NCBI GenBank assembly: GCA_002840985.1
Contig: PHDM01000008.1
Coordinates: 1-45,785, forward strand
DNA: 45,785 nucleotides
Direction of reading: 5' to 3'
Source: Bacteroidetes bacterium HGW-Bacteroidetes-17
GTDB lineage: Bacteria > Bacteroidota > Bacteroidia > Bacteroidales > GCA-2711565
Part shown: one piece after another, positions 9,728 to 32,845 of the stretch
Position numbering within the stretch: the stretch's first letter is position 1
How the letters are laid out: each line of letters begins with the position of its first letter
Notes under the pieces: generated by a model
The model's input: the letters and a program-made list of their open reading frames with translations, nothing else
What the model was told of the DNA's origin: nothing
The model's database searches: none
Made by a program: the position numbers and the translations under genes

Positions 9728-9730
9728 ATC

Positions 9731-12078: not shown

Positions 12079-12116
12079 GAAACAAATACGAAACAATGAT
12101 GTGTTTTTGGATTTTT

Positions 12117-12275: not shown

Positions 12276-12335
12276 GAAAAGATGCTTGTTCCAGCATGAA
12301 TTAGGGTAAGAATCCTATCGCTTAAACTGAAAATG

Positions 12336-12443: not shown

Positions 12444-12521
12444 AAATTAGCTCAAAGGGCTAAAACTTCAGACATACTCAACCAGTTTCATAAGAAATGT
12501 TTAAATCGAACTGAGGTTAAA

Positions 12522-12944: not shown

Positions 12945-12954
12945 TCAATAAAAT

Positions 12955-13653
12955 TTAAGGAGTTGTTAAGGCTACGGGCAGAATTTTCCCATTAAAATAT
13001 TTATGACCCGATATCGCAAAGTCTGCAACATACTTGCCCATATCTGCAGCCATTACAGGAGCTGTGTACCCTGGAAACGCTTCAGCCAGCATTTCTGTTT
13101 GGGTTGCTCCCAAAGCAAGGCAATTTGATTTGATCTCCTTATCCTTAAGCTCTTCCGCCAGGCATTCAGTTAAAACCGCCGAAGCGGCCTTACTAGAACT
13201 ATAGGCTGAAAGTCCGGTGAATTTAGCACTCCCCTGAACACCACCCATGCTGCTTATATTTAGCACATGCGCGTTCGGATTAAAATAAGGAAGAAGTAAT
13301 TGGGTAAGCATAAAAGGTACTTTAAAATTAATTTCCATCTGAAGATTAAAATCTTCTTCATTCTGGGTTTCAAAACTTTTATTAATTAAAAGACCTGCAT
13401 TGTTAATCAATACATCCACATTTTTGATTGTTCGTAGGATGTTTTTCAATAATTCTGATTTATATCGAAAGAAATCCTTCAAATCGAACGGAATAGGATG
13501 AATGTTTTCAGGATATTTACCCGATTTTTTCAAATCGGTTAAAAGGTCACTGTTACGGGCAATTGCAACCAGTTTATTCCGGGGATTGTCATTCAATCTT
13601 AATACCGTCTGAAATCCGATACCCTTGCTGGCCCCGGTGACTATAATATTCAT
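12955..13653 (-). CDS. Short-chain dehydrogenase/reductase
   Basis: 232 aa; IIVTGASKGIG, NVDVLINNAG, YSSSKAA motifs. Confidence 0.9.
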   Translation of the reverse strand: MNIIVTGASKGIGFQTVLRLNDNPRNKLVAIARNSDLLTDLKKSGKYPENIHPIPFDLKDFFRYKSELLKNILRTIKNVDVLINNAGLLINKSFETQNEEDFNLQMEINFKVPFMLTQLLLPYFNPNAHVLNISSMGGVQGSAKFTGLSAYSSSKAASAVLTECLAEELKDKEIKSNCLALGATQTEMLAEAFPGYTAPVMAADMGKYVADFAISGHKYFNGKILPVALTTP

Positions 13654-13661
13654 TTTATTAT

Positions 13662-14432
13662 TTAATATTTAGGTAATCCGGTTGCTTCTTTACGGGCATT
13701 CTTCATTTTCTCGTCAACCACATGCATGGTAAGCTTACCCGATTTATCAACACTTAAGGAAATTTTATACTTTCCATCAAAGCTTCCATCTCCAAATTTA
13801 TAATTTAGATAAGTCACCCCTTCAATTCCTTCGATTTCTTTACCTAACTTATCAGCTAAATCTTTTGCTTTTTGATACGACTCGCTTAATGGAATATTTG
13901 CCTGTTCAGCAATTCTCTTAGCTTCGGCCATTGCTTGCTGATATGTACCGGTATAAATAAACAACGCCGAATTATACCCGTCCTGCAGATTCTCTTCTTT
14001 GGTAAGATATGAATCAGAGGTATTAAAGGTCAATCCTTGGGGTTCTGTAATATTCATGTCGGTAAGCCAGGTTGGAAAAACCCCGATTGAGTATTCATCC
14101 TCTTCCCCGGTTGCTTTTGAATATCTTTGATTAAGGTCATTTATTAACTGATCGGCTTTTTCACGGTTAATCTGTCCGGTTTCAAATTGTTTTTCTACAA
14201 TCTGAATTTTTTCATTCAGGACCCTTGCTAAATCCATGGCATCGTTAATATTATCCATTGATTTATCAAAACTCTCCGATTGTTCTTTCAAGTCAACATC
14301 CTTAGGTGCCTCTTTTGATGCTTCCTCTGTAGTTTTTTTATCGTTTTTTTGAGACACGGTATTATTACAGGCGGCGATCGTTAAACCCGCGACTAACAAG
14401 CTAATGATTGTAATATAATTCAGGTGTTTCAT
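13662..14432 (-). CDS. Hypothetical lipoprotein
   Basis: 256 aa; lipobox LLVAGLTIAACNN; highly charged Lys/Glu-rich segment after Cys. Confidence 0.7.
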   Translation of the reverse strand: MKHLNYITIISLLVAGLTIAACNNTVSQKNDKKTTEEASKEAPKDVDLKEQSESFDKSMDNINDAMDLARVLNEKIQIVEKQFETGQINREKADQLINDLNQRYSKATGEEDEYSIGVFPTWLTDMNITEPQGLTFNTSDSYLTKEENLQDGYNSALFIYTGTYQQAMAEAKRIAEQANIPLSESYQKAKDLADKLGKEIEGIEGVTYLNYKFGDGSFDGKYKISLSVDKSGKLTMHVVDEKMKNARKEATGLPKY

Positions 14433-14452
14433 GATCGGAAATTTCTATTTGA

Positions 14453-14460
14453 CAAAAATA
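14453..14460 (-). promoter_or_regulatory. Candidate -7 box (TATTTTTG) for the lipoprotein gene
   Basis: Minus strand TAnnTTTG match about 20 nt upstream of the start at 14432. Confidence 0.4.
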
Positions 14461-14607
14461 CAAAACCATAGCTACCAAAATAGCAATTATTTTTAGTAAT
14501 TTGTTAATTTTGTTCAAAGTTTTGTTTTTAACAAATAACGGTATCATTCTTGGATTAGAATGGGCCTGATTATTTTTAATCAATTCATTAAAATAATATT
14601 CATTATT

Positions 14608-15009
14608 ATGCAAACGATTAAATCCTTCTTGTTAATCATTATCTTATTATTGGTGGTTCCTGGTCTTTATAGTCAGACGAGCGAGCTCAATGCAATAAGC
14701 GATGCGATCAAAACTACCGACACCAAAACCATCTATGACTATTGCGAAAATTCAATTATTTTGAACATTCCCGGTGCGAATGGTAAATACAGCAAAACAC
14801 AGTCACGAAAAATCCTTGACCAATTTTTTAAAGATCAACCGGCAAAAGAAATTAAATTAGTTAAAAGTCAATCGAAAAATCAAAACGAATTCTATTCAAT
14901 TATCGAGTATAAATCAGAAAAACAATCCTTTAATTTTTTTGTAGAAATAAAGAAAGGAGGAGCATCTTTCTTGATTCAGAAAATTCAGATCCAAGAAATC
15001 AAACCATAG
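14608..15009 (+). CDS. DUF4783-like secreted protein
   Basis: ORF opens at 14560 but signal peptide MQTIKSFLLIIILLLVVPGLYSQ suggests start 14608. SIILNIPGANGKYSKTQSRKILDQFFKDQP. Confidence 0.75.
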   Translation: MQTIKSFLLIIILLLVVPGLYSQTSELNAISDAIKTTDTKTIYDYCENSIILNIPGANGKYSKTQSRKILDQFFKDQPAKEIKLVKSQSKNQNEFYSIIEYKSEKQSFNFFVEIKKGGASFLIQKIQIQEIKP

Positions 15010-15010
15010 C

Positions 15011-15850
15011 ATGACTATTGATACAATTATAAAAAACGCCTTAATTGAAGATATCCGGGAAGGAGATCATACTTCTTTGGCTACAATCCCTGCTCAAGCC
15101 TTGGGAAAGGCAGTCTTGATCGCCAAAGAAGCAGGAATTATTGCGGGAATATCAGTTGCCGAAAAAGTTTTTAAAACGGTTGATGAACATCTCGTGTTCA
15201 TTCCTGAAAAAAAAGATGGAGATGTCATTAATGTTGGAGACAAAATTTTTACCGTAACCGGAAAGTCAATTTCAATTTTATCAGCGGAACGCTTGGCTTT
15301 AAATTTTATGCAACGCATGAGTGGGATCGCGACTGCTACACACAAAATTGTTCAACTAACTCAAGGAACAAATACCCGGATACTTGATACACGAAAAACC
15401 ACTCCGAATTTAAGGATTTTAGAGAAGGAAGCAGTTCGCTTAGGCGGTGGAGAGAATCACCGCATGGGCCTCTACGACATGATCATGATTAAGGATAATC
15501 ACATCGATTTTGCAGGTGGAATTGATAAAGCAATTGAAGCTTGTCACAAATATCTAAAAGACAAATCGAAAGATTTAAAAATTGAAATTGAGGTTCGTGA
15601 TTTTAACGAACTGCAACAGGTTCTTAGCCATGGGGGCATTGATCGGATCATGCTTGATAATTTCACTCCCCAAGATATGAAAAAGGCATTAGCACAAATA
15701 AATGGTCGATTTGAGACTGAGGCATCGGGAGGAATAACCAGTGAAAACATAAGATCATATGCTGAAACCGGCGTTGATTTTATTTCTGTCGGGGCCTTAA
15801 CCCATCACATAAAAAGTCTGGATTTGAGCCTGAAAGCTATCAAAGAATGA
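15011..15850 (+). CDS. nadC: Nicotinate-nucleotide pyrophosphorylase (carboxylating)
   Basis: 279 aa; EDIREGDHTSLATIP, NFMQRMSGIAT, LDTRKTTPNLR, HRMGLYDMIMIKDNH, EASGGI motifs. Confidence 0.95.
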   Translation: MTIDTIIKNALIEDIREGDHTSLATIPAQALGKAVLIAKEAGIIAGISVAEKVFKTVDEHLVFIPEKKDGDVINVGDKIFTVTGKSISILSAERLALNFMQRMSGIATATHKIVQLTQGTNTRILDTRKTTPNLRILEKEAVRLGGGENHRMGLYDMIMIKDNHIDFAGGIDKAIEACHKYLKDKSKDLKIEIEVRDFNELQQVLSHGGIDRIMLDNFTPQDMKKALAQINGRFETEASGGITSENIRSYAETGVDFISVGALTHHIKSLDLSLKAIKE

Positions 15851-16752
15851 AATTAACCGATCAGATTTATAAACTACGTGATTTAGCCCTGGAGTTTGTG
15901 CTTCCGGGCTTTGATGGCATCCCATTTAGTCGGGTACTTGGCTTCTATTTTAAGGGTTTAATTAAAGGGAGTATTAATCTCAGAGCTTCTGCAGTAGCTT
16001 TTAACTTTTTTATTGCATTATTCCCCTCTATTCTATTTTTTTTCACGATCATACCTTACTTACCTATCCCCCATTTTGATGACACTTTGTTCGCCTTGCT
16101 GGAAGATATCCTTCCCACTTCAACACATGAATTGGTAATTGGTACTGCCAATGACATTATCACACGACCAAGAGGTGGTTTGCTTTCATTTGGATTTTTT
16201 ATGGCCCTGTTTTTTTCAACAACAGGTATCAACAGCCTCATCGATGCATTTAATCAAACTTATCATACCATTGCCACCCGTTCATTTTTTAAGCAACAAC
16301 TGATCTCTGTTTTTCTGGTATTGATCCTATCATCTCTGGTTATAATAGGAATTGCGTTTCTGATCGGAGGAGATTCGCTCATCACTTATTTTGTTGAATT
16401 AGATTGGATTAAGAGTGGATTTAAATTACTGACTTTACAATTCACCAAATGGTTTATTACTATTATTGTATTCTTTTTTGCCATTTCATTCTTATATTAT
16501 TTAGGGCCGTCAAAAAAACAAAAATTTAGGTTCATTTCAGCCGGTGCAACACTTTCAACACTCCTGATTATCTTATTGGCATTCGGGTTTAATTATTATA
16601 TCGAAAACTTTTCAAAATACAATACACTCTATGGATCGATCGGAACCCTGATTATAATAATGCTCTGGATCTACTTTGTGGCAATGGTCATCCTGATTGG
16701 TTTTGATTTAAATGCGAGTATTTCTAATTTGAAAAAGATTAAAAAAGGTTAA
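15847..16752 (+). CDS. YihY/virulence factor BrkB family membrane protein
   Basis: 301 aa; RASAVAFNFFIALFPSILFFFTIIPYLP; multi-TM; 4-bp overlap with nadC. Confidence 0.88.
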   Translation: MKLTDQIYKLRDLALEFVLPGFDGIPFSRVLGFYFKGLIKGSINLRASAVAFNFFIALFPSILFFFTIIPYLPIPHFDDTLFALLEDILPTSTHELVIGTANDIITRPRGGLLSFGFFMALFFSTTGINSLIDAFNQTYHTIATRSFFKQQLISVFLVLILSSLVIIGIAFLIGGDSLITYFVELDWIKSGFKLLTLQFTKWFITIIVFFFAISFLYYLGPSKKQKFRFISAGATLSTLLIILLAFGFNYYIENFSKYNTLYGSIGTLIIIMLWIYFVAMVILIGFDLNASISNLKKIKKG

Positions 16753-16850
16753 GATTTGATTACTTTCGCAAAAAGAATGTTCTTTGTATTTTTTAGATGG
16801 GATAAAACCCTCTACACACATTATTATTGACTAAGCTTTTAATGATGTTC

Positions 16851-17080
16851 AAAGTACCTTGGTGCAACTCTGTATAATTTTTGTTCCACAAAGGACCTCA
16901 AAGTAAACGCAAAGTTTCACAGAGAAAATTGGTTTATTAACCCTTTTAAATACTAATTCATCGTGATTTGAATATCTTGAGTTTATTTTACCTTTGAGCA
17001 ACTTGGTGTCTTCTTAGTGTAACTTTGTGTAATTTTTATTCCACGAAGAATCACAAAATGAACACAAAGTTCCAAAGAAT
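16851..17080 (+). repeat. Degenerate direct repeat upstream of GxxExxY
   Basis: Copy A about 16851-16928 (cttggtgcaactctgtataatttttgttccacaaagga...aaagtttcacagag) resembles copy B about 17000-17080 (cttggtgtcttcttagtgtaactttgtgtaatttttattccacgaagaa...aaagttccaaagaa). Confidence 0.7.
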
Positions 17081-17090
17081 AGAACTTATT

Positions 17091-17462
17091 ATGACTGAGA
17101 ATGAATTATCGAAAATTATAATTGGTTGCGCCATCGAGGTTCATAAACATTTGGGCCCGGGCTTATTGGAATCAGCTTATCAGGAATGTTTGTACTATGA
17201 ATTAAAACAATCAGGATTAAAGGTTCAAAAAGAGAAACCGATGCCTATCATTTATAAAGAGGTTAAACTTGACCATGGATATAGAATAGATTTGTTGGTT
17301 GAAGAAAAAGTAGTTGTTGAGATAAAAACTGTTGAAATCCTCAATGATGTTCATACTGCACAAATGTTGACTTATTTGAAATTGGGAAATTACAAACTTG
17401 GATTACTGCTTAATTTTCATGTCGCGATTCTAAAAAATGGCATTAAGAGATTGATAAATTGA
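17091..17462 (+). CDS. GxxExxY protein
   Basis: LSKIIIGCAIEVHKHLGPGLLESAYQECLYYEL and GYRIDLLVEEKVVVEIK. Start 17091 preferred to 17025 because the longer N-terminus lies in the upstream repeat. Confidence 0.9.
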   Translation: MTENELSKIIIGCAIEVHKHLGPGLLESAYQECLYYELKQSGLKVQKEKPMPIIYKEVKLDHGYRIDLLVEEKVVVEIKTVEILNDVHTAQMLTYLKLGNYKLGLLLNFHVAILKNGIKRLIN

Positions 17463-17504
17463 AATGATTGCTTTAAAATAAAAATTAGCCTAAAAACCAC
17501 AAAC

Positions 17505-18482
17505 ATGAATTCGAATAAAATTACCTTTATTGGCTCAGGATCTATTGCTACTGCACTGGCAAATTCTGTCTCCTCAAAAATACCGGATAAAATCTATTTA
17601 TTATCCATTGAAGAAGAGGTTATTGAATCCATAAACACAGTCCACCGAAACAATAAATATTTCCCATTTATTCCTCTTAATCATAATATTGTTGCCACTT
17701 CAGATGTTAAAGTGCTTAAAGATAGCGATCTCATTTTTATCGCCCTGCCTTCCTCGGTAGTATTAAATTATATTCAAAAAAACAAAGACTCAATCAATGA
17801 AAAGGCGATTTTAATTAATCTGGCCAAAGGATTTGGCGACGATAGAAGAACAATAATACAAGGTCTCGAAGATATCACTAACAATCCACTTGCAACCTTA
17901 AAGGGACCAAGCTTTGCCAGAGACATTATTAATAACTTCCATACCGGTTTAACACTAGGCATGAACGATATCGACCTCGCACCACCCATCAAAGAATTAT
18001 TTAAAGGGACCAACATACACCTTGATTATTCTCAGGATATTCTTGGCGTTGAACTCATCAGCATACTTAAAAATATTTATGCCATTGTGATGGGGATTGT
18101 GGATGCACATTATAATTCGCCCAACCTGCGGTTTATGGTATTAACCAATGCTTTTCAGGAAATGCGCGGGATTTTGAAACAATTTGGCGGTAAAGAAGAA
18201 ACCCTATTCAACTATTGCGGTTTTGGTGATTTTGGCTTAACCGCTTTAAACGACCTTTCCAGAAACCGAACGATGGGATTATTGATAGGTAAAGGCTTTT
18301 TAACCAAAGACATTTCAGATCAGGTATTGCTGGAGGGCCGAATTGCCGTGAATGTTTTTTGTGAAGAAATCTCTAAAAAACATGCATTGGATAATTTCCA
18401 TATCATTTCCGAACTTTATAATGTTTTCTATAAAGAACAAAAGGTTACGACTTTTGTGAATTCGATTTTGAATAATAATTAA
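17505..18482 (+). CDS. gpsA: NAD(P)H-dependent glycerol-3-phosphate dehydrogenase
   Basis: 325 aa; ITFIGSGSIATALAN, LINLAKGFG, LKGPSFARDI, ILKNIYAIVMGI, GFGDFGLTA. Confidence 0.85.
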   Translation: MNSNKITFIGSGSIATALANSVSSKIPDKIYLLSIEEEVIESINTVHRNNKYFPFIPLNHNIVATSDVKVLKDSDLIFIALPSSVVLNYIQKNKDSINEKAILINLAKGFGDDRRTIIQGLEDITNNPLATLKGPSFARDIINNFHTGLTLGMNDIDLAPPIKELFKGTNIHLDYSQDILGVELISILKNIYAIVMGIVDAHYNSPNLRFMVLTNAFQEMRGILKQFGGKEETLFNYCGFGDFGLTALNDLSRNRTMGLLIGKGFLTKDISDQVLLEGRIAVNVFCEEISKKHALDNFHIISELYNVFYKEQKVTTFVNSILNNN

Positions 18483-18505: not shown

Positions 18506-19978
18506 ATGGATGAATTAATATCGAACAATCTTAAGCATAAGGCGGCTACAGGCATCATTTGGAAATTTCTTGATCAGGGAGGTAGGCAATTATTGCAGTT
18601 TATATCCCTGATTTATATTGCCCGGATTTTATTGCCCGATGACTATGGTTTAATTGGATTGATGACCATATTTATTGGAATTTCAATGGCCTTTATTGAT
18701 AGTGGATTTAGAGCGGCACTTATTCAAAAAGGGACCGGGGTGACACAGAATGATTATAATACTGTTTTTTACTTTAATATTGGGGTTAGTATTGTTTTTT
18801 ACTTATTAATTTTTTGGGGAGCCCCTTACATTTCCGAATTTTATAACGAACCCAGGCTCACGCTCATAGCCCGAGTTTTAGGACTCAACCTGATTTTATC
18901 GGCGATGGGAATGATCCATCTCGTTATTTTTGAAAAGCGCATCAATTTCAAAACCATTACCAAGCTAAATTTCATTTCCATTTTCATCTCCATTGTTATT
19001 GGGATAGGAATGGCGGCAAATGGGTTTGGAGTCTGGGCACTTGTTTCCATGCCCTTATCCGAAAATCTGATTAGAACCTTATTATTATGGATCATTAACA
19101 AATGGCGTCCTAATTTAAGTTTTAGCATTCAATCTTTTAAAGAATTATATTCAGTTGGATCTAAATTATTATTTGTTGGGATTCTTACGCTTGTAAATCA
19201 AAATTTCATTCCAATAGTTATTGGTAAACTCTTTACGATTTCAGATGTTGGATTTTTTACCCAGGCCCAAAGATTTCAAGGAAAGATAACCGAATTCATT
19301 TCCACTCCAATTCAAGGTGTTACGCTTTCTGTACAATCTATCATTAAAGATGATTTTCCACGATTAAAAAATGCAGTACGCACCAATGTAAAAATAACTG
19401 CTCTTTTTTCTTTTCCTGCCATCCTTGGCTTTATGATTATTGGAGAACCCTTTATTAAAATTTTCCTGACTGAAAAATGGATGCCAAGTCTGTTTTATCT
19501 TCATATGATTTCGCTAGCTGCATTGTTTTTGGTGCTTAGAGGTGCAACCAGCAGCTATGTTTTTCCGATTGGGAAAATAAATTTTATGGTTAGAATGACC
19601 ATTTTTTCTAATGTAGTTTTTTTGGCATTTTTAGGTGCGGCTATACTATTTCACTTAAGTCTCAAAATACTGGTAGCCTCAACCGTTCTTCACGAACTGA
19701 TTGTTTTTGTGGTATATTTCTATTTTTCCCGGCCTTTTATCGGATATAAGTTTAGGGAGGTTTTCATGGATGTGTTGCCTGCAACCGGGTTTTCAATAAT
19801 AATGGGAATATTGGTATATCTCATTCAAATTCAATTTGGCATTAATCTCCTTATATTTTTTATTCAAATATTCGTAGGCGCAATTGCCTATTTGCTATTA
19901 AACTACCTTTTTAATAAAAAAATGTTTAACGAAATATTGTCATTCGGGATGTCATTGGTATGGAAAAATAAAAATTAA
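18506..19978 (+). CDS. Wzx-like polysaccharide flippase (MOP superfamily)
   Basis: 490 aa multi-TM; ATGIIWKFLDQGGRQLLQFISLIYIARILLPDDYGLIGLM. Confidence 0.9.
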   Translation: MDELISNNLKHKAATGIIWKFLDQGGRQLLQFISLIYIARILLPDDYGLIGLMTIFIGISMAFIDSGFRAALIQKGTGVTQNDYNTVFYFNIGVSIVFYLLIFWGAPYISEFYNEPRLTLIARVLGLNLILSAMGMIHLVIFEKRINFKTITKLNFISIFISIVIGIGMAANGFGVWALVSMPLSENLIRTLLLWIINKWRPNLSFSIQSFKELYSVGSKLLFVGILTLVNQNFIPIVIGKLFTISDVGFFTQAQRFQGKITEFISTPIQGVTLSVQSIIKDDFPRLKNAVRTNVKITALFSFPAILGFMIIGEPFIKIFLTEKWMPSLFYLHMISLAALFLVLRGATSSYVFPIGKINFMVRMTIFSNVVFLAFLGAAILFHLSLKILVASTVLHELIVFVVYFYFSRPFIGYKFREVFMDVLPATGFSIIMGILVYLIQIQFGINLLIFFIQIFVGAIAYLLLNYLFNKKMFNEILSFGMSLVWKNKN

Positions 19979-20331: not shown

Positions 20332-21021
20332 ATGATAACAAACAAAGCGGTAATAATACTTTCTAGGTTAGATTCGACAAGATTTCCAAATAAAGCATTA
20401 AAGAAACTTGGAAATAAAACACTGATAGAATGGTGCATTACTTCCTTGATGCCCCAAAAGCATTACAAAATTGTATTGGCAACAACTAACAGAGAAGTTG
20501 ATGATCCATTAATTGAAATTGCAAATAAATATGGAATTCAATTTTATCGCGGAGATTGTGATAATGTTGCACTAAGGGTAAAAAATTGTTTAGAACAATT
20601 TAAGATTGATATTTTTGCTAGGGTTAATGGTGATAGTCCTTTCCCTCAAAGAGAATTAATCGAAGAGGGATTTAAAAGATTAGAAATTGATAATCTCGAA
20701 TTTGTCACCAATTTAGCTGTAAGATCGTTCCCGTATGGTATTAGTGTTGAAATATTAAGGGCTCAAACATATTTGGATCATTATAAATATTTTCATTCAA
20801 ACACTCAAAAGGAACATATCACTTCTTATTTTTATGAAAACCTGAAAACATTTAATTTTCTTAATATCGATTATGGGAATTCAAATGATCATAATGTTAG
20901 GCTAGTGGTAGATACTCCAGAAGATTACCTTATAATCACACAAATTGCAGATGCATTAAGCCAAATAAACAATCCAACAACAGAAGATTTAGTCAAACTA
21001 TATAAAAAGATTACTGCATGA
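20332..21021 (+). CDS. SpsF-like cytidylyltransferase / NTP transferase
   Basis: 229 aa; AVIILSRLDSTRFPNKALKKLGNKTLIEW; RVNGDSPFPQREL; linked to NeuB-like and SpsG-like genes. Confidence 0.82.
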   Translation: MITNKAVIILSRLDSTRFPNKALKKLGNKTLIEWCITSLMPQKHYKIVLATTNREVDDPLIEIANKYGIQFYRGDCDNVALRVKNCLEQFKIDIFARVNGDSPFPQRELIEEGFKRLEIDNLEFVTNLAVRSFPYGISVEILRAQTYLDHYKYFHSNTQKEHITSYFYENLKTFNFLNIDYGNSNDHNVRLVVDTPEDYLIITQIADALSQINNPTTEDLVKLYKKITA

Positions 21022-22097
21022 TAAATATATATTGTATTCGACCTAAAGGTTTTAATATTGGAAATGATGTTATTTTTTTAGCATTAAAGCATTTTATTAG
21101 AAAATCGTTTCAACAGAATGTAAACCTAATTTCGCTTCCTGCCACCGGGAAATACGAGAGCCAAAGAAAATCAGGATTAACTTCGCAAACAGTATATGAA
21201 ATTAACCAATTTGGCCACGGTTTGATTATTGGTGGTGGTAATTTATATGAAAATGGCGAATTAGATGTTAACCCCACAGCTCTAAAAGCACTTGATGTGC
21301 CAATTATGGTATTTAGTTTGGCCCGTGGAAAAATTTACAACAAAAACTTAGAACTTGTTGACAGAACTGATGTAATGACAGATGACAAAATCAGCATGCT
21401 TAACAAGAAAGCATTTATTTCTCTTTCAAGAGATAAAGCTACAAAAGAATATATCGATAAATTAGGTTGCGAAAACATTCTTGGAGGCTGTCCAACCCTT
21501 TTTATGAATGAAATTCCTCAACACAATGTGCCAGTTAATGACTCTGATAAGACAGATGCACTTATTTCAATAAGAACTCCATCATTAATGAGTATTCCTG
21601 TTGTGAACCAATATGAAGTCAGAGGATTGATTCTTCAAATGATAGAAATATTAAAGCAAAAAGGTTATAATAAAATCAAACTCCTTTGCCATGATCATCG
21701 TGACATTCCGTTTGCTGCTACCTTTGAAGGTATCGACTATTTCTTTACCGAAGATGTATATACCTACTTATCATATTTAAAGAATACCCGATTAAATCTT
21801 ACTTTCAGGTTACATTCTTTTCTCCCCTGCCTTGCATATGATATCCCAGCCATTAAAATCAGTTATGATCAAAGAGCAATTAGTATGCTTGAAACTATTG
21901 GGATGCAGGATTGGAACATCAATCTTCTTAAAGATGATGTGCTCATGGAACTCACAAAAAGATTGGAATCACTTGATAAATTATCTGAGATGAAAGATAA
22001 ATTAATCTCCAATGAATGGCAAATACTCAAAAACACGATGGAAAAAAATTGCGCAAAGTTTGCAAATCAAATAATAGAAGATCAAAATTCTAAATAA
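21018..22097 (+). CDS. Polysaccharide pyruvyl transferase family protein
   Basis: 359 aa; FGHGLIIGGGNLYENGEL, TRLNLTFRLHSFLPCLAYDIPAIKISYDQRAISML; ATGA overlap with upstream gene. Confidence 0.8.
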   Translation: MINIYCIRPKGFNIGNDVIFLALKHFIRKSFQQNVNLISLPATGKYESQRKSGLTSQTVYEINQFGHGLIIGGGNLYENGELDVNPTALKALDVPIMVFSLARGKIYNKNLELVDRTDVMTDDKISMLNKKAFISLSRDKATKEYIDKLGCENILGGCPTLFMNEIPQHNVPVNDSDKTDALISIRTPSLMSIPVVNQYEVRGLILQMIEILKQKGYNKIKLLCHDHRDIPFAATFEGIDYFFTEDVYTYLSYLKNTRLNLTFRLHSFLPCLAYDIPAIKISYDQRAISMLETIGMQDWNINLLKDDVLMELTKRLESLDKLSEMKDKLISNEWQILKNTMEKNCAKFANQIIEDQNSK

Positions 22098-22098
22098 T

Positions 22099-23094
22099 AT
22101 GATAGAGCCTCAAATTATCGCAGAAATTGGGACAAACCATAATGGGAATTTGGATACTGCTATTAAACTCATTGATGTTGCGGTGAGTGCAAATGCAGAT
22201 TCAGTAAAACTGCAAATAATTAACACTGAAGGATTATACCTGCCAGGTATTTACGAATTTGGAAATTACGATATCAGAGAAGTCAGGGCCATGCGGGATC
22301 GATATAAATTGTTGGATAGTGATTATCAAAATTTGGCAAACTATTCATTAACAAAAAATATTTCCTTTTCTGCTTCTGTATTTGATTTAAAAGGATTAGC
22401 CTTGTTGATGAAGTTTAACCCCCCATATATTAAAATTGCGTCAACAGATCTTAATAATATTTCTTTTCTTCGAAAAGTTGCAGAAAAAGGAAAAAAAATT
22501 ATCATTTCTACAGGGATGTCAGAATTATCGGAAATTGAAAACACCATAAATGAAATCACCAAGACGGGCTTTAGTGACCTTGTTTTGATGCATTGTGTTT
22601 CAGCCTATCCAGCAAAATTAGAAAATATGAACCTAGGGTTTATTGGTATCCTCAAGTCACAATTCGGATTTCCTGTTGCATTATCAGATCATACTCAATC
22701 AAGTATTGCTGCTTGTTTAGCACTAACCAAAGAGGTTGTTTTTATTGAAAAACATATTACGTTAGATGTTAACCAGCATGGTTTTGATCATAAATATGCG
22801 GCTGAGCCAGAAGTTTTCAAACAATACGTTTATGATATAAAAAGAGCATACCAGGCGTTACAAGAACCAACTTCAAAACTGGCAGAAGATGAACAATATG
22901 TAAAAAAAAGAGCCAGACGTTCAATTTATGCTGCCAGAGATATTTTAATTGATGAGATCATTCAGGAAAAGGACCTTTTGATTGTTAGACCCTCAAACAT
23001 ATTAACCGCAGACAAATGTGATTTGGTTATAGGTAAAAAAGCAAAAACAAAAATTCAGCAATTTCAACCGTTATCTCTAGAACTGATCTACTAA
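22099..23094 (+). CDS. neuB: N-acetylneuraminate synthase family protein (NeuB/PseI/LegI-like)
   Basis: 331 aa; IIAEIGTNHNGNLDTAIKLI, KIASTDLNN, HCVSAYPA, ALSDHTQSS, FIEKHITLD, plus C-terminal SAF-like segment. Confidence 0.92.
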   Translation: MIEPQIIAEIGTNHNGNLDTAIKLIDVAVSANADSVKLQIINTEGLYLPGIYEFGNYDIREVRAMRDRYKLLDSDYQNLANYSLTKNISFSASVFDLKGLALLMKFNPPYIKIASTDLNNISFLRKVAEKGKKIIISTGMSELSEIENTINEITKTGFSDLVLMHCVSAYPAKLENMNLGFIGILKSQFGFPVALSDHTQSSIAACLALTKEVVFIEKHITLDVNQHGFDHKYAAEPEVFKQYVYDIKRAYQALQEPTSKLAEDEQYVKKRARRSIYAARDILIDEIIQEKDLLIVRPSNILTADKCDLVIGKKAKTKIQQFQPLSLELIY

Positions 23095-24107
23095 TGAATC
23101 TATTAGTTATTTGTAAGGCATCAACTCAAATTGGTTTCGGTCATTTAATTCGATCTCGAACATTTGTTGAAAATGCCATAGAGGGAAATATGAATCTTGA
23201 CATAACCTTATGTATTATTGGTGATTCCTCATTAAAACTTCTACTAAAAAATCCAGCAATTACATTTTTATTTTACGAAGATGAGAATCAAATATTATTA
23301 ACAAAAAGTTATGATGCTATCATTTTCGATACCATTAATTTCAATAAATCCGTATTCGATAAGATAAGATTTAATGCAAAAAAAATAATTTCGTTATCAC
23401 CAGTATTTAATCTAATGCCTTTTGTTGATATATGTTTTAATAGGACTCAATACTGGGCAGAAGATATAGAGAAGTTAACTTTAAAAAAATATGGAGGATT
23501 TGAATATGCACTCATTCAAAGAAATTGCAATAGAATTCATTCAATAATATATAAATACGGGCTAGAAAAAAGATATTTTAATATAGCCATATCAATGGGG
23601 GGCGGAGATGCAGCAAATAAAACTTTAGAGGTAATCAAACAGATCAAAAACATCATTGAACCTTTCACATTCTGGATAATGCTTGGTGAAGGTTATTCTC
23701 ATTCATTTGATGAAATTGTAAATGAAATACGAAAAGTTAAAAAACACGAAATTATTCTTGCAAAAACCAACCATTCAATGTGGAATGTTTTAAGTAATAC
23801 TAGCCTTTTAATTACGACAAGTGGGATAACATCATATGAAGCTGCTTATGCGGGCTTGCCAACCATTACTTTTTATGACTATGACAATCAATGGTTCTTA
23901 TTAAAAGAACTTGTTGATACAAAACTTACCATTAATGGTGGCAAATTCTCAGATAATAGTATAAATAATCTAAGAAACATTTTAACTGATCTTTATCATG
24001 ACAGATCAGTATTATATGATATGCATAAGAGATCAAAAAAACAATTTGACAATGAGGCTGCAAATAGAATTATAAATATTATTAAAGAAGAGGTATTTAA
24101 AACATGA
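23094..24107 (+). CDS. PseG/SpsG-like nucleotide-sugar hydrolase
   Basis: 337 aa; QIGFGHLIRSR motif, SMGGGDAANKTLEVI, LITTSGITSYEAAYAGLPTI; next to NeuB-like. Confidence 0.8.
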   Translation: MNLLVICKASTQIGFGHLIRSRTFVENAIEGNMNLDITLCIIGDSSLKLLLKNPAITFLFYEDENQILLTKSYDAIIFDTINFNKSVFDKIRFNAKKIISLSPVFNLMPFVDICFNRTQYWAEDIEKLTLKKYGGFEYALIQRNCNRIHSIIYKYGLEKRYFNIAISMGGGDAANKTLEVIKQIKNIIEPFTFWIMLGEGYSHSFDEIVNEIRKVKKHEIILAKTNHSMWNVLSNTSLLITTSGITSYEAAYAGLPTITFYDYDNQWFLLKELVDTKLTINGGKFSDNSINNLRNILTDLYHDRSVLYDMHKRSKKQFDNEAANRIINIIKEEVFKT

Positions 24108-24721
24108 AAATTGGCATAATTGATTATGGATCGGGCAACTTCACATCTGTATGGAATGCCGTTGGATCTCTTTCAAAAGAAATTACAAGAATCACAAAAA
24201 AGGAAGACTTTAATGGTTGCTCGCATATTATATTACCTGGAGTTGGTGCATATGGTGCGGCAGCAAATAAAATTTTTTCGCTTGACTTGTACGACACTTT
24301 GCATAATCATGTTTTAAATAAAAAGGTGCCTTTTCTTGGAATTTGTGTTGGAATGCAATTATTATCAGAAAAAGGCTTTGAACATGGCGAGCACTCTGGT
24401 TTTGGATGGGTTAAAGGAAACGTAAAGGTTATCGAATTCCCTAATATGGAATTGCCTCTGCCTCATATGGGATGGAATAGCTTGACAAACATGAACAATT
24501 CACCTTTATTTAAGGACATTGAGAATGATGCAACTTTTTATTTTGTTCACAGTTATTTCTTACAGTTAGAAACAACGGAAATTAAAACGGTAAATGTAGA
24601 ATATGGAATAACATTTCCTGCTGCTCTTTCTCTCGAAAATATTCATGGAGTTCAATTTCATCCTGAAAAAAGTCAATTTTATGGAATGAAACTTCTGAAA
24701 AACTTTATTAAATTATGTTAA
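24104..24721 (+). CDS. hisH: HisH-like glutamine amidotransferase subunit
   Basis: 205 aa; IIDYGSGNFTSVWNAV, catalytic FLGICVGMQLL, HGVQFHPEKSQFYGMKLL; embedded in polysaccharide operon. Confidence 0.92.
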   Translation: MKIGIIDYGSGNFTSVWNAVGSLSKEITRITKKEDFNGCSHIILPGVGAYGAAANKIFSLDLYDTLHNHVLNKKVPFLGICVGMQLLSEKGFEHGEHSGFGWVKGNVKVIEFPNMELPLPHMGWNSLTNMNNSPLFKDIENDATFYFVHSYFLQLETTEIKTVNVEYGITFPAALSLENIHGVQFHPEKSQFYGMKLLKNFIKLC

Positions 24722-25533
24722 AAAAAAGAATTATTCCGGTAATTTTATTACGCAATGGAGTTATTGTTCAGAGTAGGAAATTTAGACGGTATCAGCTATT
24801 AGGAACCCCAACAGCTGCAGTTCAAAGATTAAGTAATTGGGCAAGTGACGAACTAATTTACCTTGATATTTCACCGATCCCCTATTATGATTTGAACAGA
24901 GATGACTTAAACCATGAGTCTTTTAATGATATTATTGATATTATTAAATTAGTTTCGGGAAAATGCTTTATGCCTCTCACTTTCGGAGGGGGAATTAGAA
25001 CCATAGAAGATGTTCGAATCAGATTAAAACTTGGGGCAGATAAAATCAGCTTAAATACTGCTGCAATTGAGAGTCCTGAACTTATTAAACAATGCTCCGA
25101 AGAATTTGGAAAACAATGTGTAGTTGTAAGTATTGATTCTAAGAAAAATGAAGATGGTACTTACATTGTATATAAAGGTGGGAGAACTGAGACTAATTTA
25201 AATCCTTTTGACTGGGCTAAAGAAATTGAAAAATTAGGAGCTGGTGAGATTTTAATAAACTCCATGGACTTGGATGGTTCTGGTCTTGGATTCGATTTAG
25301 ATCTTATAGAAAATATCAGTAATAGCATAAATATTCCAACCATTGCCCTTGGAGGTGCTGGAAATTGGGATCATTTTGCAGAAGTGCTCAAAACAAGCGC
25401 CAGTGCTGTTGCTGCAGCAAATATCTTTCAACACACCGAAAACAGTGTATATAATTGTAAAAAATATTTATTTGAAAAAGATTTGAACGTACGAAAACCA
25501 TTAGAATTATTAAATACAAGCTTAAATTTATAG
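24715..25533 (+). CDS. hisF: HisF-like cyclase subunit paralog
   Basis: 272 aa; KKRIIPVILLRNGVIVQSRKF, TFGGGIRTIEDVRIRLKLGADKISLNTAA, INSMDLDGSGLGFDLDLI. Confidence 0.92.
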   Translation: MLKKRIIPVILLRNGVIVQSRKFRRYQLLGTPTAAVQRLSNWASDELIYLDISPIPYYDLNRDDLNHESFNDIIDIIKLVSGKCFMPLTFGGGIRTIEDVRIRLKLGADKISLNTAAIESPELIKQCSEEFGKQCVVVSIDSKKNEDGTYIVYKGGRTETNLNPFDWAKEIEKLGAGEILINSMDLDGSGLGFDLDLIENISNSINIPTIALGGAGNWDHFAEVLKTSASAVAAANIFQHTENSVYNCKKYLFEKDLNVRKPLELLNTSLNL

Positions 25534-25534
25534 T

Positions 25535-26755
25535 ATGGAAAGTAAAAGGAAAGAATTTTCAGAGATGCATTATTGTTCGAAATGTACTTATCCACAAGTT
25601 TCAGTTAATCTTATTTTAGATGACGAAGGAGTATGTAGTGCCTGTAGAATGCAAGAAGATTTTGATGAACTAACGACAGAATTTTGGAAAATTAAAGAAA
25701 ATAAATTTAATGAACTTGTTGAATGGGCAAAAAAAACTGCAACTGGAAATTACGATTGCATCATTCCTGTTAGTGGAGGCAAAGATAGTTACTATCAAGT
25801 CCATAAAGCCATTGAACATGGGATGAAACCATTATTGGTTACTTATCATGGAAACAACTATCTCCCTGTGGGGCAGAGAAATCTAGACAAGATGAGGCAC
25901 GTATTTAACGCAGATCATATGATTTTCGGACCAAGTGAAGAAACGCTAATAAAGTTAAATCGACTTGGCTTTAAGATGATGGGTGATATGAACTGGCATG
26001 CCCATGCTGGAATTAAAACCTATCCTATGCATATTGCTGTTAAACTAAAAATCCCACTCGTTATATGGGGGGAAATAACATGGTCTATTTCAGGAATGTT
26101 TTCACCGAATGATTATATTCAGTATAATAAACGAACAGTATTTGAGCATGACATGAGAGGATTCACCTTAAATGACATGATTGAGAAGAAAGAAGGGCTC
26201 ATCGAAAAAGATCTTGTTTGGTTGAGAATGCCTTCCGATAAAGAATTTGAAGATGCAGGATCGTTGGGGATATATATAGGCAATTTCTTTAAATGGGATC
26301 CCAATGAACATGCTCATAAGATGAAAACTGAGTATGGGTTTGAATTTGCCGAAGAGCCTTTTGAAAGAACTTATAGAACAATGTCAAACCTTGATGATAT
26401 GCATGAAAATGGGATTCATGATTATATGAAGTTTATTAAATTTGGCTATGGCCGAGCAACAGATCATGCCTCCAAGGATATCAGATCAGGTTATATGACA
26501 CGTGAAGAAGGTGTAAATATGGTTAAAAAGTATGATCATGTAAAACCTAGGAAAGATTTAGAACGATGGCTGAAATATGTAGATATGACTGAAGCAGAAT
26601 TTGATACTATTGCCGATGGATTCAGAGATCCTAGAGTTTGGTGGATTCAGGATGACCAATGGTGGAAGCAGAATATTTGGGGAGAACCATCTTCATTTGG
26701 AAAAGTAAACTTACCAAAATCTAAACAAGATAAATACAGAAGAAATGAAATTTAA
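25535..26755 (+). CDS. N-acetyl sugar amidotransferase (WbpG/PseA-like)
   Basis: 406 aa; HYCSKCTYPQVSVNLILDDEGVCSAC, PP-loop IPVSGGKDSYYQ, WGEITWSISGMFS; directly follows hisH-hisF. Confidence 0.92.
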   Translation: MESKRKEFSEMHYCSKCTYPQVSVNLILDDEGVCSACRMQEDFDELTTEFWKIKENKFNELVEWAKKTATGNYDCIIPVSGGKDSYYQVHKAIEHGMKPLLVTYHGNNYLPVGQRNLDKMRHVFNADHMIFGPSEETLIKLNRLGFKMMGDMNWHAHAGIKTYPMHIAVKLKIPLVIWGEITWSISGMFSPNDYIQYNKRTVFEHDMRGFTLNDMIEKKEGLIEKDLVWLRMPSDKEFEDAGSLGIYIGNFFKWDPNEHAHKMKTEYGFEFAEEPFERTYRTMSNLDDMHENGIHDYMKFIKFGYGRATDHASKDIRSGYMTREEGVNMVKKYDHVKPRKDLERWLKYVDMTEAEFDTIADGFRDPRVWWIQDDQWWKQNIWGEPSSFGKVNLPKSKQDKYRRNEI

Positions 26756-27740
26756 AGAAATCGACATACGACCTAGTGATTTAATGAAACTGAAAGAACC
26801 AGCATTAGAGCACGACAAACAATTCCTGCTTGCTAGAAAAGATGAATTTATTAAAGTGAATTGCCCGGCCTGTTGTTCAGATGATCATTCCGAATGGGCT
26901 ATTAAAGACAATTTTGATTATACAATCTGTAATCAATGTAATACAGTCTTCATGAACCCCAGAGCAAACGAACTATTATTAGCAGACTTCTATAAGCAGT
27001 CAAAGAATTATGAGTTCTGGAATAAATATATTTTCCCTGCATCAGATGAGATAAGAAAAGAACGGATTTTTAAACCCAGAGCTCAAAAGGTAATAGATTT
27101 TTGCAATAAACATGAAATTAATGGTACTATATTAGAGGTTGGGGCAGCATATGGAACATTTTGCGAAGCGATTAAGGGCTTTAATTATTTCCAGAGAATT
27201 ATTGCGGTAGAGCCAACACCAGATTTAGCTGAAACATGCAGAAAGAAAGATCTTGAGGTATTTCAAGAACCAATTGAAAATGTAAAATTACCAAATGATT
27301 CAATTGATGTAGTGGTCAGTTTTGAAGTTATGGAACATTTGTTTAATCCCAAAGATTTTATTCTCAATTGTACATCAATGTTAAAAAAGGGTGGACTATT
27401 CATCTGTACATGCCCAAGTATAGATGGATTAGGTACACTTGTTCTTAAAGAAAAAGCCAAAGTCATTGACCATGAACATTTGAACTATTTTTCACCATCA
27501 TCTTTGGCGTTACTATTCCAAGATTGTTCTTTGGAAATCGTAGAAGTTTCAACCCCAGGGGAACTTGACGTTGATTTATTAAAAAATGCTTTTCTGGAAA
27601 ACCCAGAAGACTTTTCAGATCAACAATTCATAAGTAAAATATTGAGTTCTGAAGAAGAAAACATTAGAAACAATTTTCAGGATTTCTTGAAGAAAAATTT
27701 ATTATCATCACATTTATGGATTATAGGCAGAAAAAAATAA
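26745..27740 (+). CDS. Class I SAM-dependent methyltransferase with N-terminal Zn-binding segment
   Basis: 331 aa; CPACC...CNQCNTVFMNPRA; ILEVGAAYGTFCEAI; VVSFEVMEHLFNPKDFI. Confidence 0.88.
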   Translation: MKFKEIDIRPSDLMKLKEPALEHDKQFLLARKDEFIKVNCPACCSDDHSEWAIKDNFDYTICNQCNTVFMNPRANELLLADFYKQSKNYEFWNKYIFPASDEIRKERIFKPRAQKVIDFCNKHEINGTILEVGAAYGTFCEAIKGFNYFQRIIAVEPTPDLAETCRKKDLEVFQEPIENVKLPNDSIDVVVSFEVMEHLFNPKDFILNCTSMLKKGGLFICTCPSIDGLGTLVLKEKAKVIDHEHLNYFSPSSLALLFQDCSLEIVEVSTPGELDVDLLKNAFLENPEDFSDQQFISKILSSEEENIRNNFQDFLKKNLLSSHLWIIGRKK

Positions 27741-27787: not shown

Positions 27788-29614
27788 ATGAGTAAAGTCC
27801 TGTTTTTTTCTCCTAACACATCGATACTGTATTGGACCTACCCAGAAGCACTTTTAGCAGAAGCCCTGCAGATTGAAAAATCTGAAATTGTTTACATTAA
27901 TTGCGGAGGTGTTTTTGATAAATACTGTGTATCTATGTCCGCTTTTGGTTTGAATAAAGATTCTAGCTATAAACGCAAAAAAGAAATTTGTGCACTATGC
28001 GATCACAATAAGAATAAAATAAAATCTACATTTGGCTTAAAGGGTTATGATTTAAAAAGTTACTATGTAACAGAAGATGAACAAATAATAAATCAAACTA
28101 TTCAGGATACAACCAAAGAGACTTATCTGGATTTTCAAATTGATAATATCTATTTAGGTCGTTTGGCATTATTTGAAGTTTTAATTACTCATAAAAAAAA
28201 CAATCTTGAATTTAATGATGATGAATGGAGGGAATATTTAATAGCGTTTAAAAATACCCTGATATCATTTTATTGCGCTAAAAGGATTCTTGCTAAAGAA
28301 AAGCCAACCTCCATCGTAACATATTCATCTGATTACTCAGTCAATCATGCATTTTGTTTGGTTGGGTCATCGCTTGGAATCCCATTTTATGATATTCACG
28401 CAGGAGGTAATATTTCCGACGCAAAAAATAACTTAATCATTTCTAAAAATTATGCATCCTTCTTTTTTAAAGAACTAATTAGATTCTGGCCGAATTATAG
28501 GAATATAGCTTCGAATAAAGAAGCGTTGAATCATATAACAAATCATTTCATTGAATTATTCAAAGGGCTTCATCATGATGCATATTCAACCAGAAAATCA
28601 ACTAAAAAGTTAAATATCAGAGAGAAATTCGGTATCAAACCTTCTCAAAAAGTATTAGTAGCAACAATGAGCAGTTATGATGAAAGATTTGCAGGAGAAG
28701 CCAATGGAAGATATCGTTCCGATTTACCATTACTATTTAAAACACAAGTAGAATGGATTAAAGAACTAATTGAAATTTCGAGAAAGAGAGATGATTTGTT
28801 CTTACTTATTCGAGTCCATCCTCGTGAGTTTCCAAATAAAAGAGAATCTGTCCGTTCAGACCATTCCAAATTACTTGAGCAGTTGTTTATTAATTTACCG
28901 AACAATGTAAAAATAAACTGGCCTACAGATAATATCTCCCTTTATGATATTGCTTGCGAAGCGAATGTTTTTTTGAATGCTTGGTCAAGTGTTGGGAAAG
29001 AAATGAGTTTGTTTGGAATCCCAGTAGTTATATATTCAGCCGATCTGGTAAATTATCCAGCAAGTTTAAATTACATCGGTTCTACACATGATGAATACAT
29101 TAATAAAATAGATCAAGCAATTGACAAAGGTTGGTCATTTGAACGTATCAGGAATACCTATCGCTGGTATTCGCTTGAGCATAATTATGCACTCCTTGAT
29201 ATTTCAGAGGGATATCCTGATTCAATTAAGAAGGCTAATAAAATTAGAAGGATTTTCTTGAAAGTTATTAAAAAAATGGCACCTTACAATTGGTTTGCTT
29301 TTGTTGATATAGATAAGACATATTTTAAAAAGAAAGGAACCCCTTTACATGCACGTAAATTGATTCATGAATTAATAGTTGGTCAGAAAAATACACTCTT
29401 AGATCTAATTGAACCCGAAAGTTTCAATAATTCTAGTTTAGAAGAAGAAACAGAACTATTAAAAGTAGAAATACAAAGATTATTAAAAACACTTGACCCA
29501 GATAATATCATAGAAGGTATATCATCAAAAACATTAATTGATAATTTAAGGGCTAGTATCAATTATAAAGACACTTTAGAAACAAAAAAGGAGTTTGAAC
29601 AACTACACTTGTAA
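27788..29614 (+). CDS. Putative capsule/surface-carbohydrate glycosyltransferase (GT-B, KpsS-like)
   Basis: 608 aa; LLIRVHPREFPNKRES and NAWSSVGKEMSLFGIPVVIYS patterns; cysteine-rich N-terminal CALCDHNKNK. Confidence 0.6.
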   Translation: MSKVLFFSPNTSILYWTYPEALLAEALQIEKSEIVYINCGGVFDKYCVSMSAFGLNKDSSYKRKKEICALCDHNKNKIKSTFGLKGYDLKSYYVTEDEQIINQTIQDTTKETYLDFQIDNIYLGRLALFEVLITHKKNNLEFNDDEWREYLIAFKNTLISFYCAKRILAKEKPTSIVTYSSDYSVNHAFCLVGSSLGIPFYDIHAGGNISDAKNNLIISKNYASFFFKELIRFWPNYRNIASNKEALNHITNHFIELFKGLHHDAYSTRKSTKKLNIREKFGIKPSQKVLVATMSSYDERFAGEANGRYRSDLPLLFKTQVEWIKELIEISRKRDDLFLLIRVHPREFPNKRESVRSDHSKLLEQLFINLPNNVKINWPTDNISLYDIACEANVFLNAWSSVGKEMSLFGIPVVIYSADLVNYPASLNYIGSTHDEYINKIDQAIDKGWSFERIRNTYRWYSLEHNYALLDISEGYPDSIKKANKIRRIFLKVIKKMAPYNWFAFVDIDKTYFKKKGTPLHARKLIHELIVGQKNTLLDLIEPESFNNSSLEEETELLKVEIQRLLKTLDPDNIIEGISSKTLIDNLRASINYKDTLETKKEFEQLHL

Positions 29615-29698
29615 ATGTAAATATTGAAGGTTTTAATATTTACAAAACTACTTGACAAGAATTTGATTTCGTTGGATTTTCTTAAATTAAAAAAAATT

Positions 29699-30418
29699 AT
29701 GACACATTTTTTAAAAACAATCTTATCTAAAACACAGTATTTGAAAATTGTGGATTTTAAAAATAATCATATTGATGGATATTCGGTTAAGTCGTACTCT
29801 CAGGAAGGAGAAGATATGATTTTAAGAAGAATGTTTAATGATAAGAAGGACGGTTTTTTTATTGACATTGGCGCACATCACCCAAAAAGGTTTTCGAATA
29901 CTTATCTTTTTTATAAACAAGGATGGAATGGAATTAATATTGATGCCATGCCCGGCAGTATGAAAGCCTTTAACAAAATCAGGCCCAAGGATATAAACAT
30001 TGAATGCCCCATCTCCGATACCCGGGAAGAACTTACTTATTATAGCTTTAATGAACCAGCAATCAATACCTTTTCGAAATTAGAAGCTGAGAAAAAAGAC
30101 GGATTAAATAACTATAAAATCATTGAAAAGAAAAAACTTACAACCAGTACCTTGTCGGATATTTTGGATAAGAACTTAAAAGTTGGTCAGCAGATAGATT
30201 TTTTGACCATTGATGTTGAAGGGCTTGACTTTAAAGTTTTAAAATCAGCTAATCTTACCAAGTATAAACCTAAAGTTATTTTAATTGAAACGCTTGAAAG
30301 TAGTTTAAACAGCATAGTAAATAACGAAATATCAACGTATTTGGCATCGTTTGGGTACTCCATTTATGCCAAATCGGTCAATACTGTATTCTACGTTGAT
30401 CAAGGATTTGAAATTTAA
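29699..30418 (+). CDS. FkbM family methyltransferase
   Basis: ORF 29624-30418; SQEGEDMILRRMFNDKKDGFFIDIGAHHPKRFSNTYLFYKQGWNGINIDAMP, DFLTIDVEGLDFKVLKS. Start 29699 or 29624 uncertain. Confidence 0.88.
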   Translation: MTHFLKTILSKTQYLKIVDFKNNHIDGYSVKSYSQEGEDMILRRMFNDKKDGFFIDIGAHHPKRFSNTYLFYKQGWNGINIDAMPGSMKAFNKIRPKDINIECPISDTREELTYYSFNEPAINTFSKLEAEKKDGLNNYKIIEKKKLTTSTLSDILDKNLKVGQQIDFLTIDVEGLDFKVLKSANLTKYKPKVILIETLESSLNSIVNNEISTYLASFGYSIYAKSVNTVFYVDQGFEI

Positions 30419-31388: not shown

Positions 31389-32474
31389 CTATCCTTTATA
31401 CTTATTTAATGCCGTTATTACTTGCATGATGTCTTCTTCGGTATGAAAATAAGAAATGGGTAAACTCAGTGTAGTTTCATGAATTTCCTCACTGATGGGA
31501 TAATCACCTTCTAAAATGCCTGCCATGGCTTTTTGTTTATGAGGTGCCAAGGGATAATGGATTTCCGTTTTAATTTCATTTTTCAATAAATAAGCCCTTA
31601 ATTCGTCTCTTTTTTGATGTCGGATATTGTAAATATGGTAAACATCAAAATAATCCTGATCAACAACAGGTTTAATAAAACGATCATCTAAATTTGCATG
31701 ATAGCATGCTGCCAATGCTCTTTTATGATTGGTGATATCCTCAAGTACTTCCAATTTTACGGATAGTAAACCGGCCTGGATTTCATCGAGTCTTGAATTA
31801 TAGCCAATTCTATCATTATAATATTTCTTACTGCTCCCATAATTCCTGAGAGAAAATATTTTATCGGCGAAATCTTTGCTGTTTGTAGTAATGGCCCCGG
31901 CATCACCTAATGCTCCCAGATTTTTAGTCGGATAAAAACTGAAACATCCGATGCCAAAAGAACCAATCTTCCGGCCCTTATACAAAGCACCATGAGCTTG
32001 CGCGCAATCCTCGATCACTTCCAATTGATATTTCTTCGCGATGGCCATAATGGGGTCCATGTCGCAACTTTTTCCATACAGATGAACCGGTAAAATCGCT
32101 TTCGTGTTGGCTGTGATTTTAGCTTCTATTTTTGCAGGGTTGATATTATATGTACTGATGTCGGGCTCAACCAAAACCGGTTTAAACCCATTGCGAAGTA
32201 TTGCCAAAATGGTAGCAATGTAGGTATTGGACGGGACGATGATTTCACTGTTTTCGGGAAAATCCAATGCATCGATGGCAAGCACCAATGCATCCAGCCC
32301 TGAAGCCAAACCAATGCAGTAATCAGTAGTGCAAAAAGCTGCAAAATCCTTTTCAAAGCCGGATACATTTTTACCTAAAATATACCACCCGCTTTTTAAA
32401 ATTTCATCAAATTTTTCCTGATACTTTGTGAAAAGCTTTTCATTTACTTTTCCCAGATTTTCATATTCTATCAT
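31389..32474 (-). CDS. DegT/DnrJ/EryC1/StrS aminotransferase (FdtB/QdtB-like)
   Basis: 361 aa; [43 protein letters not shown]; coupled to FdtA-like gene. Confidence 0.92.
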
Positions 32475-32845
32475 AAGTATTTATCATAAATATAATCATT
32501 GGCATCGAACGATTCGGAGGCAAATACCAGCAACACGGAATTTTCACTAAAATCGCTCATTACATGCCAATCTTTTGGTTCCAGTATTAAACATTTGCCC
32601 GGATCATCAAGTAAAAATATTTCATTGTTAATTCCATCATTATTAGAGATCTTACAACTTCCATTGAGGCAAATTGCAGCCTGATAAGTAATTTTATGAC
32701 GATGCCCACCCCTTAATGATCGATCAACACCATAGATATAAAACACCCTTTTTACTTTGAAAGGTAACTCTTTTTCAATATCATTGATTACCGTTAGGTT
32801 ACCACGGGCATCATGATGCGTTTTCAGATTTAATAAATGTGCCAT
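32471..32845 (-). CDS. Sugar 3,4-ketoisomerase (FdtA/QdtA, WxcM-like cupin)
   Basis: 124 aa; [45 protein letters not shown]. Confidence 0.88.

Follow-up and report, generated by a model that had tools for sequence, protein, structure and literature searches.

As surface antigens, nonulosonic acids are of key importance, and their amidination swaps a neutral N-acetyl group for a cationic one. The closest described systems are those of Legionella and Campylobacter, where, according to excerpts of the published accounts (PMC3766260, PMC13306086), legionaminic acids are amidinated and N-methylated. In these excerpts, a WbuX/PtmG-family amidotransferase and a methyltransferase (PtmG and PtmH in Campylobacter, ORF28 and ORF8 in L. 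pneumophila) stand beside a NeuB-type synthase. We found a similar association in Bacteroidetes bacterium HGW-Bacteroidetes-17. The stretch analyzed, hereafter the window, is the whole 45.8-kb contig PHDM01000008.1 (45,785 nucleotides) of this 3.62-Mb genome, which is 87% complete. Eight intact open reading frames (ORFs) at positions 20332-27740, all on the plus strand, encode a cytidylyltransferase, a pyruvyltransferase-like protein, a NeuB-like synthase, a PseG/SpsG-like protein, an amidination module (HisH, HisF, WbuX) and a methyltransferase (Table 1). We interpret them as a single biosynthetic cassette for a nonulosonic acid activated with cytidine monophosphate (CMP) and bearing an acetamidino group, a reading to which we give a probability of about 0.75. 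Its observed basis is the gene content, the intact active-site motifs, the unity of the cassette and the placement of NeuB and WbuX in their respective trees. An amidinated nonulosonic acid had been proposed by a first-pass annotation of the sequence, and it is now well supported by these motifs and by this unity, by the presence of separate histidine genes, the loss of Asp11 in the cassette HisF, the clade of WbuX, and the gene order of a related pseudaminic acid (Pse) cluster, locus L087.

The locus differs from these systems in several respects. Relative to the Campylobacter and Legionella legionaminic acid (Leg) systems, NeuB of the window is not in the Leg clade, equivalents of LegB and LegC are unlinked in the window, and there is a pyruvyltransferase-like gene, whereas no pyruvyltransferase is described in the excerpts cited above. 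The O-antigen cluster of L. pneumophila Sg6/Sg12 (Lp6_762-782; PMC3694923) resembles the window in grouping PseG, a cytidylyltransferase, HisF, HisH, a lipopolysaccharide protein, NeuB and a methyltransferase. However, this cluster has a DegT aminotransferase, CapD and an aldo/keto reductase, a looser gene order, and, in its listed part, no pyruvyltransferase. The CMP-legionaminate pathway of Bacillus subtilis (SpsM-C-D-G-E-F; PMC7439481) shares with the window the SpsF, SpsE and SpsG types of enzymes, but the cassette lacks SpsM, SpsC and SpsD, and its amidination module is outside the described sps pathway. Finally, L087, from another Bacteroidota genome (G493), has the same order HisH-HisF-WbuX-methyltransferase with proteins 42-54% identical to those of the window. 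It differs by its complete PseB/C/F/G-H/I pathway, by a PseI that belongs to the Pse clade, and by the lack of a pyruvyltransferase. The combination of NeuB, HisH, HisF and WbuX is not new, since it is frequent in Bacteroidota and has published precedents in Legionella and Campylobacter. What is new here is a separate NeuB clade, a pyruvyltransferase-like gene in a core shared with two distant Bacteroidota, and the absence of linkage to precursor genes.

The eight ORFs are tightly packed, with junctions that are overlaps of at most 11 bases or gaps of one base. The packing, the strand and the coordinates are as the first-pass annotation gave them. Its eight family labels were broadly upheld by searches with Pfam and NCBIfam profiles using the curated or gathering cut-offs, and the motifs it had pointed out (NeuB catalytic residues, SGGKDS PP-loop, HisH Cys and His) are all intact. 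Of the eight proteins, just two, HisH and WbuX, exceed a curated NCBIfam cut-off. Four others, namely the cytidylyltransferase, NeuB and the PseG-like and HisF-like proteins, are divergent: they match their Pfam or NCBIfam family and fail every named equivalog tested.

A species of the same genus (G731, 99% complete) has the eight genes in identical order (locus L111). The proteins are 95-98% identical, with a synonymous divergence (dS) of 0.11-0.26 and a ratio of nonsynonymous to synonymous divergence (dN/dS) of 0.04-0.11. This synteny and the low dN/dS, a sign of purifying selection, together with a nucleotide identity of approximately 95% over 20.2-27.75 kb, rule out that the packing of ORFs arose by chance. 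Identity drops mostly to 60-83% in the genes alongside: the Wzx-like flippase is 75% identical between the two species (dS around 3) and the 608-residue protein on the other side 71% (dS around 1.9). The sharp drop at both edges indicates that the eight genes move, or are constrained, as one unit, and the simplest reading of these sequence comparisons would be a recombinational exchange. After the 608-residue gene, the sister species has a set of Gfo/Idh, acetyltransferase and DegT genes (L111:12987-15757) in the place taken by an FkbM methyltransferase in the window.

The amidination module is intact. HisH has its Cys and His/Glu motifs (GICVGMQ, QFHPEKS). The HisF-like protein matches WbuZ best, at 257.9 bits for a cut-off of 299.7, ahead of AglZ (215.8 for 310), and is also below the HisF cut-off. 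The HisF sequence IIPCLDVKDG is replaced in it by IIPVILLRNG, so that the cyclase catalytic residue Asp11 is gone. This loss, and the presence on another contig (C53) of a HisH and two further His_biosynth genes of the hisF and hisA types, rule out a role in histidine biosynthesis: the cassette pair is not the only one of the genome, and the HisF of C53 retains Asp11. The PP-loop SGGKDS of WbuX and its zinc tetracysteine (CxxC...CxxC) align with those of relatives, as described for 8WEX, the crystallized L. pneumophila enzyme LpNASAT (PMC10607449). The active-site loss envisaged as a risk in the first-pass annotation is thus not observed.

Which sugar is amidinated? The window is predicted to share the three-protein chemistry of WbpG/HisH2/HisF2 of Pseudomonas aeruginosa (ManNAc3NAmA), a system that lacks NeuB and acts on a hexuronic acid linked to uridine diphosphate (UDP). 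The module of the window could thus amidinate UDP-ManNAc3NAcA, as WbpG does, and be merely adjacent to nonulosonic acid genes. To the credit of this alternative, Wbp-like genes occur elsewhere in the genome (a DegT aminotransferase and a hexapeptide acetyltransferase on C146, Gfo/Idh and a 2-epimerase on C95), and the set mentioned above lies beside the operon of the sister species. We nevertheless consider it very unlikely in view of the distribution and phylogeny of WbuX. The protein was found above the cut-off in 54 of 398 Bacteroidota genomes, and among 40 of their WbuX neighborhoods that we read, 21 had NeuB. The rarity of the combination implied by the first-pass annotation is contradicted by these loci, 17 of which have NeuB, HisH and HisF together; annotated plasmid records of Azospirillum and Rhodobacterales show it as well.

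The 54 WbuX rows of our tree, which does not include WbpG itself, fall into two clades. The first is mostly devoid of NeuB, and its loci bear WbpB/E/I-like or FnlA/2-epimerase-type genes. The second, which includes LpNASAT, mostly has NeuB along with PseB/PseC or LegC, and it is there that the window falls. NeuB is nearby in 28 of the 32 non-reference rows of this clade, and the other four (loci L073, L075 and L084) have LegC- or PseB/C-like genes. The window is sister to L087 (support 100/99), within a subclade of PseB-PseC clusters that also comprises L078 and L093. In L087, PseB, PseC, PseF and PseI exceed their cut-offs and are directly followed by the module and the methyltransferase. The clade placement and this synteny make the amidination of a nonulosonic acid much likelier than that of UDP-ManNAc3NAcA, and the joint conservation of the module with four nonulosonate-type genes as one cassette also speaks against mere adjacency. 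More generally, gene context distinguishes two WbuX lineages, one amidinating nonulosonic acids and the other other sugars, which should aid annotation. The L078 and L093 clusters each encode, right after HisF, a second WbuX-like gene with a degenerate PP-loop (SGARDS and SGSQDS; L078:9684-10940 and near position 10688 of L093) on top of another WbuX.

The NeuB-like protein retains the catalytic residues of the family (motifs VKLQ, KIAS, SDHT and EKH), but remains below the cut-offs for N-acetylneuraminate (Neu) synthase (TIGR03569, 254.4 bits for 399.65) and for the pseudaminic acid synthase PseI (TIGR03586, 227.8 for 340.25). A 31-row tree groups it with the homologs of L010 and G027 in a clade of their own (100/100) with a long stem. 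Its assignment to the NeuB family is confirmed, whereas it could be placed in none of the Neu, Leg and Pse clades. Alternatively, the core could produce plain legionaminic or pseudaminic acid, later amidinated, with the precursor genes either lying elsewhere in the genome or absent from the assembly. The nearest reference is indeed SpsE of B. subtilis, an enzyme of a legionaminate pathway (PMC7439481), in a weak grouping (93/90), and topology tests (p-AU) do not reject membership of Pse (0.073). On the other hand, they reject Leg (0.011) and, marginally, Neu (0.040). At the specificity position, Gly has been reported for Neu and Leg enzymes and Phe for Pse enzymes (PMC7371886), whereas the window and L010 have Thr and G027 has Cys.

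The precursor genes bear on the same question. The cassette has no linked 4,6-dehydratase, 4-aminotransferase or acetyltransferase for a hexose precursor, and searches for PseC, LegC, Epimerase_2 and Polysacc_synt_2 in the genome and in that of the sister species found no linked set. The incompleteness of the window's genome, and the PseB-like dehydratases found elsewhere in the sister species, would fit an ordinary product. Yet the latter, nearly complete genome has no aminotransferase above the LegC cut-off. Overall, we regard ordinary legionaminic or pseudaminic acid as a minority possibility. Read by eye, C65 and C30 of the sister species and C54 of genome G822 resemble other sugar pathways; C30 also has, again by eye, a separate NeuB-like cluster.

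The cytidylyltransferase, pyruvyltransferase-like, NeuB and SpsG genes recur without the amidination module in L010, a Bacteroidales metagenome-assembled genome, and in G027, which has one extra ORF between the first two. Of the four proteins, the pyruvyltransferase-like one shows the highest conservation (67-69% identity in L010 and L013, versus 50-63% for NeuB, 32-48% for SpsF and 37-45% for SpsG), and its gene directly adjoins NeuB in all three distant loci. The SpsF-like protein (48% identical to L010, 35% to L013) has weak KdsB and PseF matches below the cut-offs, and the SpsG-like one has the motif GFGHLIRS with His17. Beyond its own genome, the pyruvyltransferase-like protein was found only in G027 among 392 genomes of the class, and in the sister species among 98 relatives; 8 genomes were covered by an order-level search around G027. 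The phylum-wide search (398 genomes) returned only weak matches without the core, and the plasmid search none. The divergent NeuB clade and this conserved partner point to a new variant, whose exact product is probably undescribed. Two aspects had escaped the first-pass annotation: the pyruvyltransferase-like gene belongs to the conserved core, and the cassette lacks the upstream sugar-nucleotide genes. The small NeuB clade thus defined, with its co-conserved partner, offers a product that is directly testable by reconstitution.

Pyruvylation of the product is suggested by a Pfam name, and the protein might instead be a glycosyltransferase that attaches this nonulosonic acid. Its conservation and constant position next to NeuB would suit such a role, and its structural model resembles GT-B proteins. 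However, this model is of low confidence (mean predicted local distance difference test of 52.7), true pyruvyltransferases are likewise expected to be GT-B-like, and Pfam assigns PS_pyruv_trans, so that we find a glycosyltransferase rather unlikely. A bolder proposal, which we advance tentatively and with the odds against it, is that the four genes form the heart of a fourth route to nonulosonates, apart from Neu, Leg and Pse, with an obligate pyruvyltransferase-family step, to which this genus would have joined amidination and N-methylation, giving a structurally undescribed sugar. In L010, the core is followed by aminopeptidase-like, aldolase-like, AMP-ligase, VOC, cyclase and AAC(3)-like ORFs (12012-18281, by inspection), as if a different sugar modification stood in for amidination. 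Genome G202 (L108:8165-12254) has a 676-residue ORF that matches the methyltransferase and, weakly, the pyruvyltransferase-like protein; next to it are a cytidylyltransferase-like ORF and a NeuB-like gene that is both divergent and shortened.

If the eight genes form a cassette for an amidinated nonulosonic acid, the SpsG-like hydrolase would free a 2-acetamido hexose from a nucleoside-diphosphate (NDP) sugar made elsewhere, NeuB would condense it with phosphoenolpyruvate into a nine-carbon acid, and the SpsF-like enzyme would attach CMP. HisH would release ammonia from glutamine and pass it through the HisF paralogue to WbuX, for the ATP-dependent conversion of an N-acetyl into an acetamidino group. 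The methyltransferase would probably N-methylate this group, like PtmH, the pyruvyltransferase-like protein may add a pyruvate ketal or transfer the sugar, and Wzx would export the product into a surface glycan. The order of reactions, the substrate, the methylation site and the last two roles are all conjectural. N-methylation is plausible by synteny and by analogy with PtmH and Legionella ORF8, which N-methylate the amidino group according to the excerpts cited above (PMC3766260, PMC13306086); the methyltransferase is 46% identical to its counterpart in L087 and 49% to that of L078, both Pse clusters. Several points weigh against the proposed pathway. The substrates of all its enzymes are only predicted, NeuB, SpsG and SpsF are all below equivalog cut-offs, N-methylation is argued from synteny, and in the window's own genome the best PseB/PglF-type dehydratase scores 57 bits and no PseC or LegC exceeds its cut-off, which leaves the precursor unaccounted for.

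Table 1. Genes of the cassette and of its immediate flanks (positions in the window).
Feature	Coordinates	Strand	Evidence
Wzx-like flippase, before the start of the cassette	18506..19978	+	ORF, identity by inspection
SpsF-like cytidylyltransferase (predicted CMP-nonulosonate synthetase)	20332..21021	+	CTP_transf_3, 85.7 bits
Polysaccharide pyruvyltransferase family protein	21018..22097	+	PF04230 (PS_pyruv_trans), 51.4 bits, above gathering cut-off of 25.3
NeuB-family nonulosonate synthase, separate clade	22099..23094	+	PF03102, 201.7 bits, and SAF domain PF08666, above cut-offs
PseG/SpsG-like NDP-sugar hydrolase (predicted)	23094..24107	+	TIGR03590, 70.4 bits, below cut-off of 153.55
HisH-type glutaminase	24104..24721	+	TIGR01855, 212.3 bits, above cut-off
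HisF paralogue (WbuZ/HisF2 type), predicted ammonia-channel partner	24715..25533	+	WbuZ 257.9 bits > HisF 234.7 bits
WbuX/WbpG/PtmG-type N-acetyl sugar amidotransferase (predicted)	25535..26755	+	TIGR03573, 318.9 bits, cut-off 203.2
S-adenosylmethionine methyltransferase, N-terminal Cys4 zinc-finger-like segment	26745..27740	+	Methyltransf_23, 70.4 bits
608-residue protein (ORF608), just beyond the cassette edge	27788..29614	+	possible glycosyltransferase (putative)

The cassette is preceded by a glycerol-3-phosphate-dehydrogenase-like gene and the flippase, and followed by ORF608, of unassigned family, and the FkbM methyltransferase. ORF608 has no Pfam or NCBIfam match and no credible match in PDB, and its structural model is unusable. 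The transcription unit may extend into 27788-29614 and 29624-30418; scans for promoters and terminators gave no signal above that of shuffled sequences. Further downstream, an FdtA (WxcM-like) and DegT aminotransferase pair (31389-32845), as for 3-amino sugars linked to deoxythymidine diphosphate, is kept in the sister species. In the rnf operon (6388-12012, minus strand), a 131-residue ORF of the 23S_rRNA_IVP family (8222-8617) splits the rnfG-like gene (FMN_bind) from rnfD. Finally, two large membrane proteins of the YfhO family (36368-38983 and 42391-44880) surround a glycosyltransferase and two paired genes of the GDP-mannose/fucose type.

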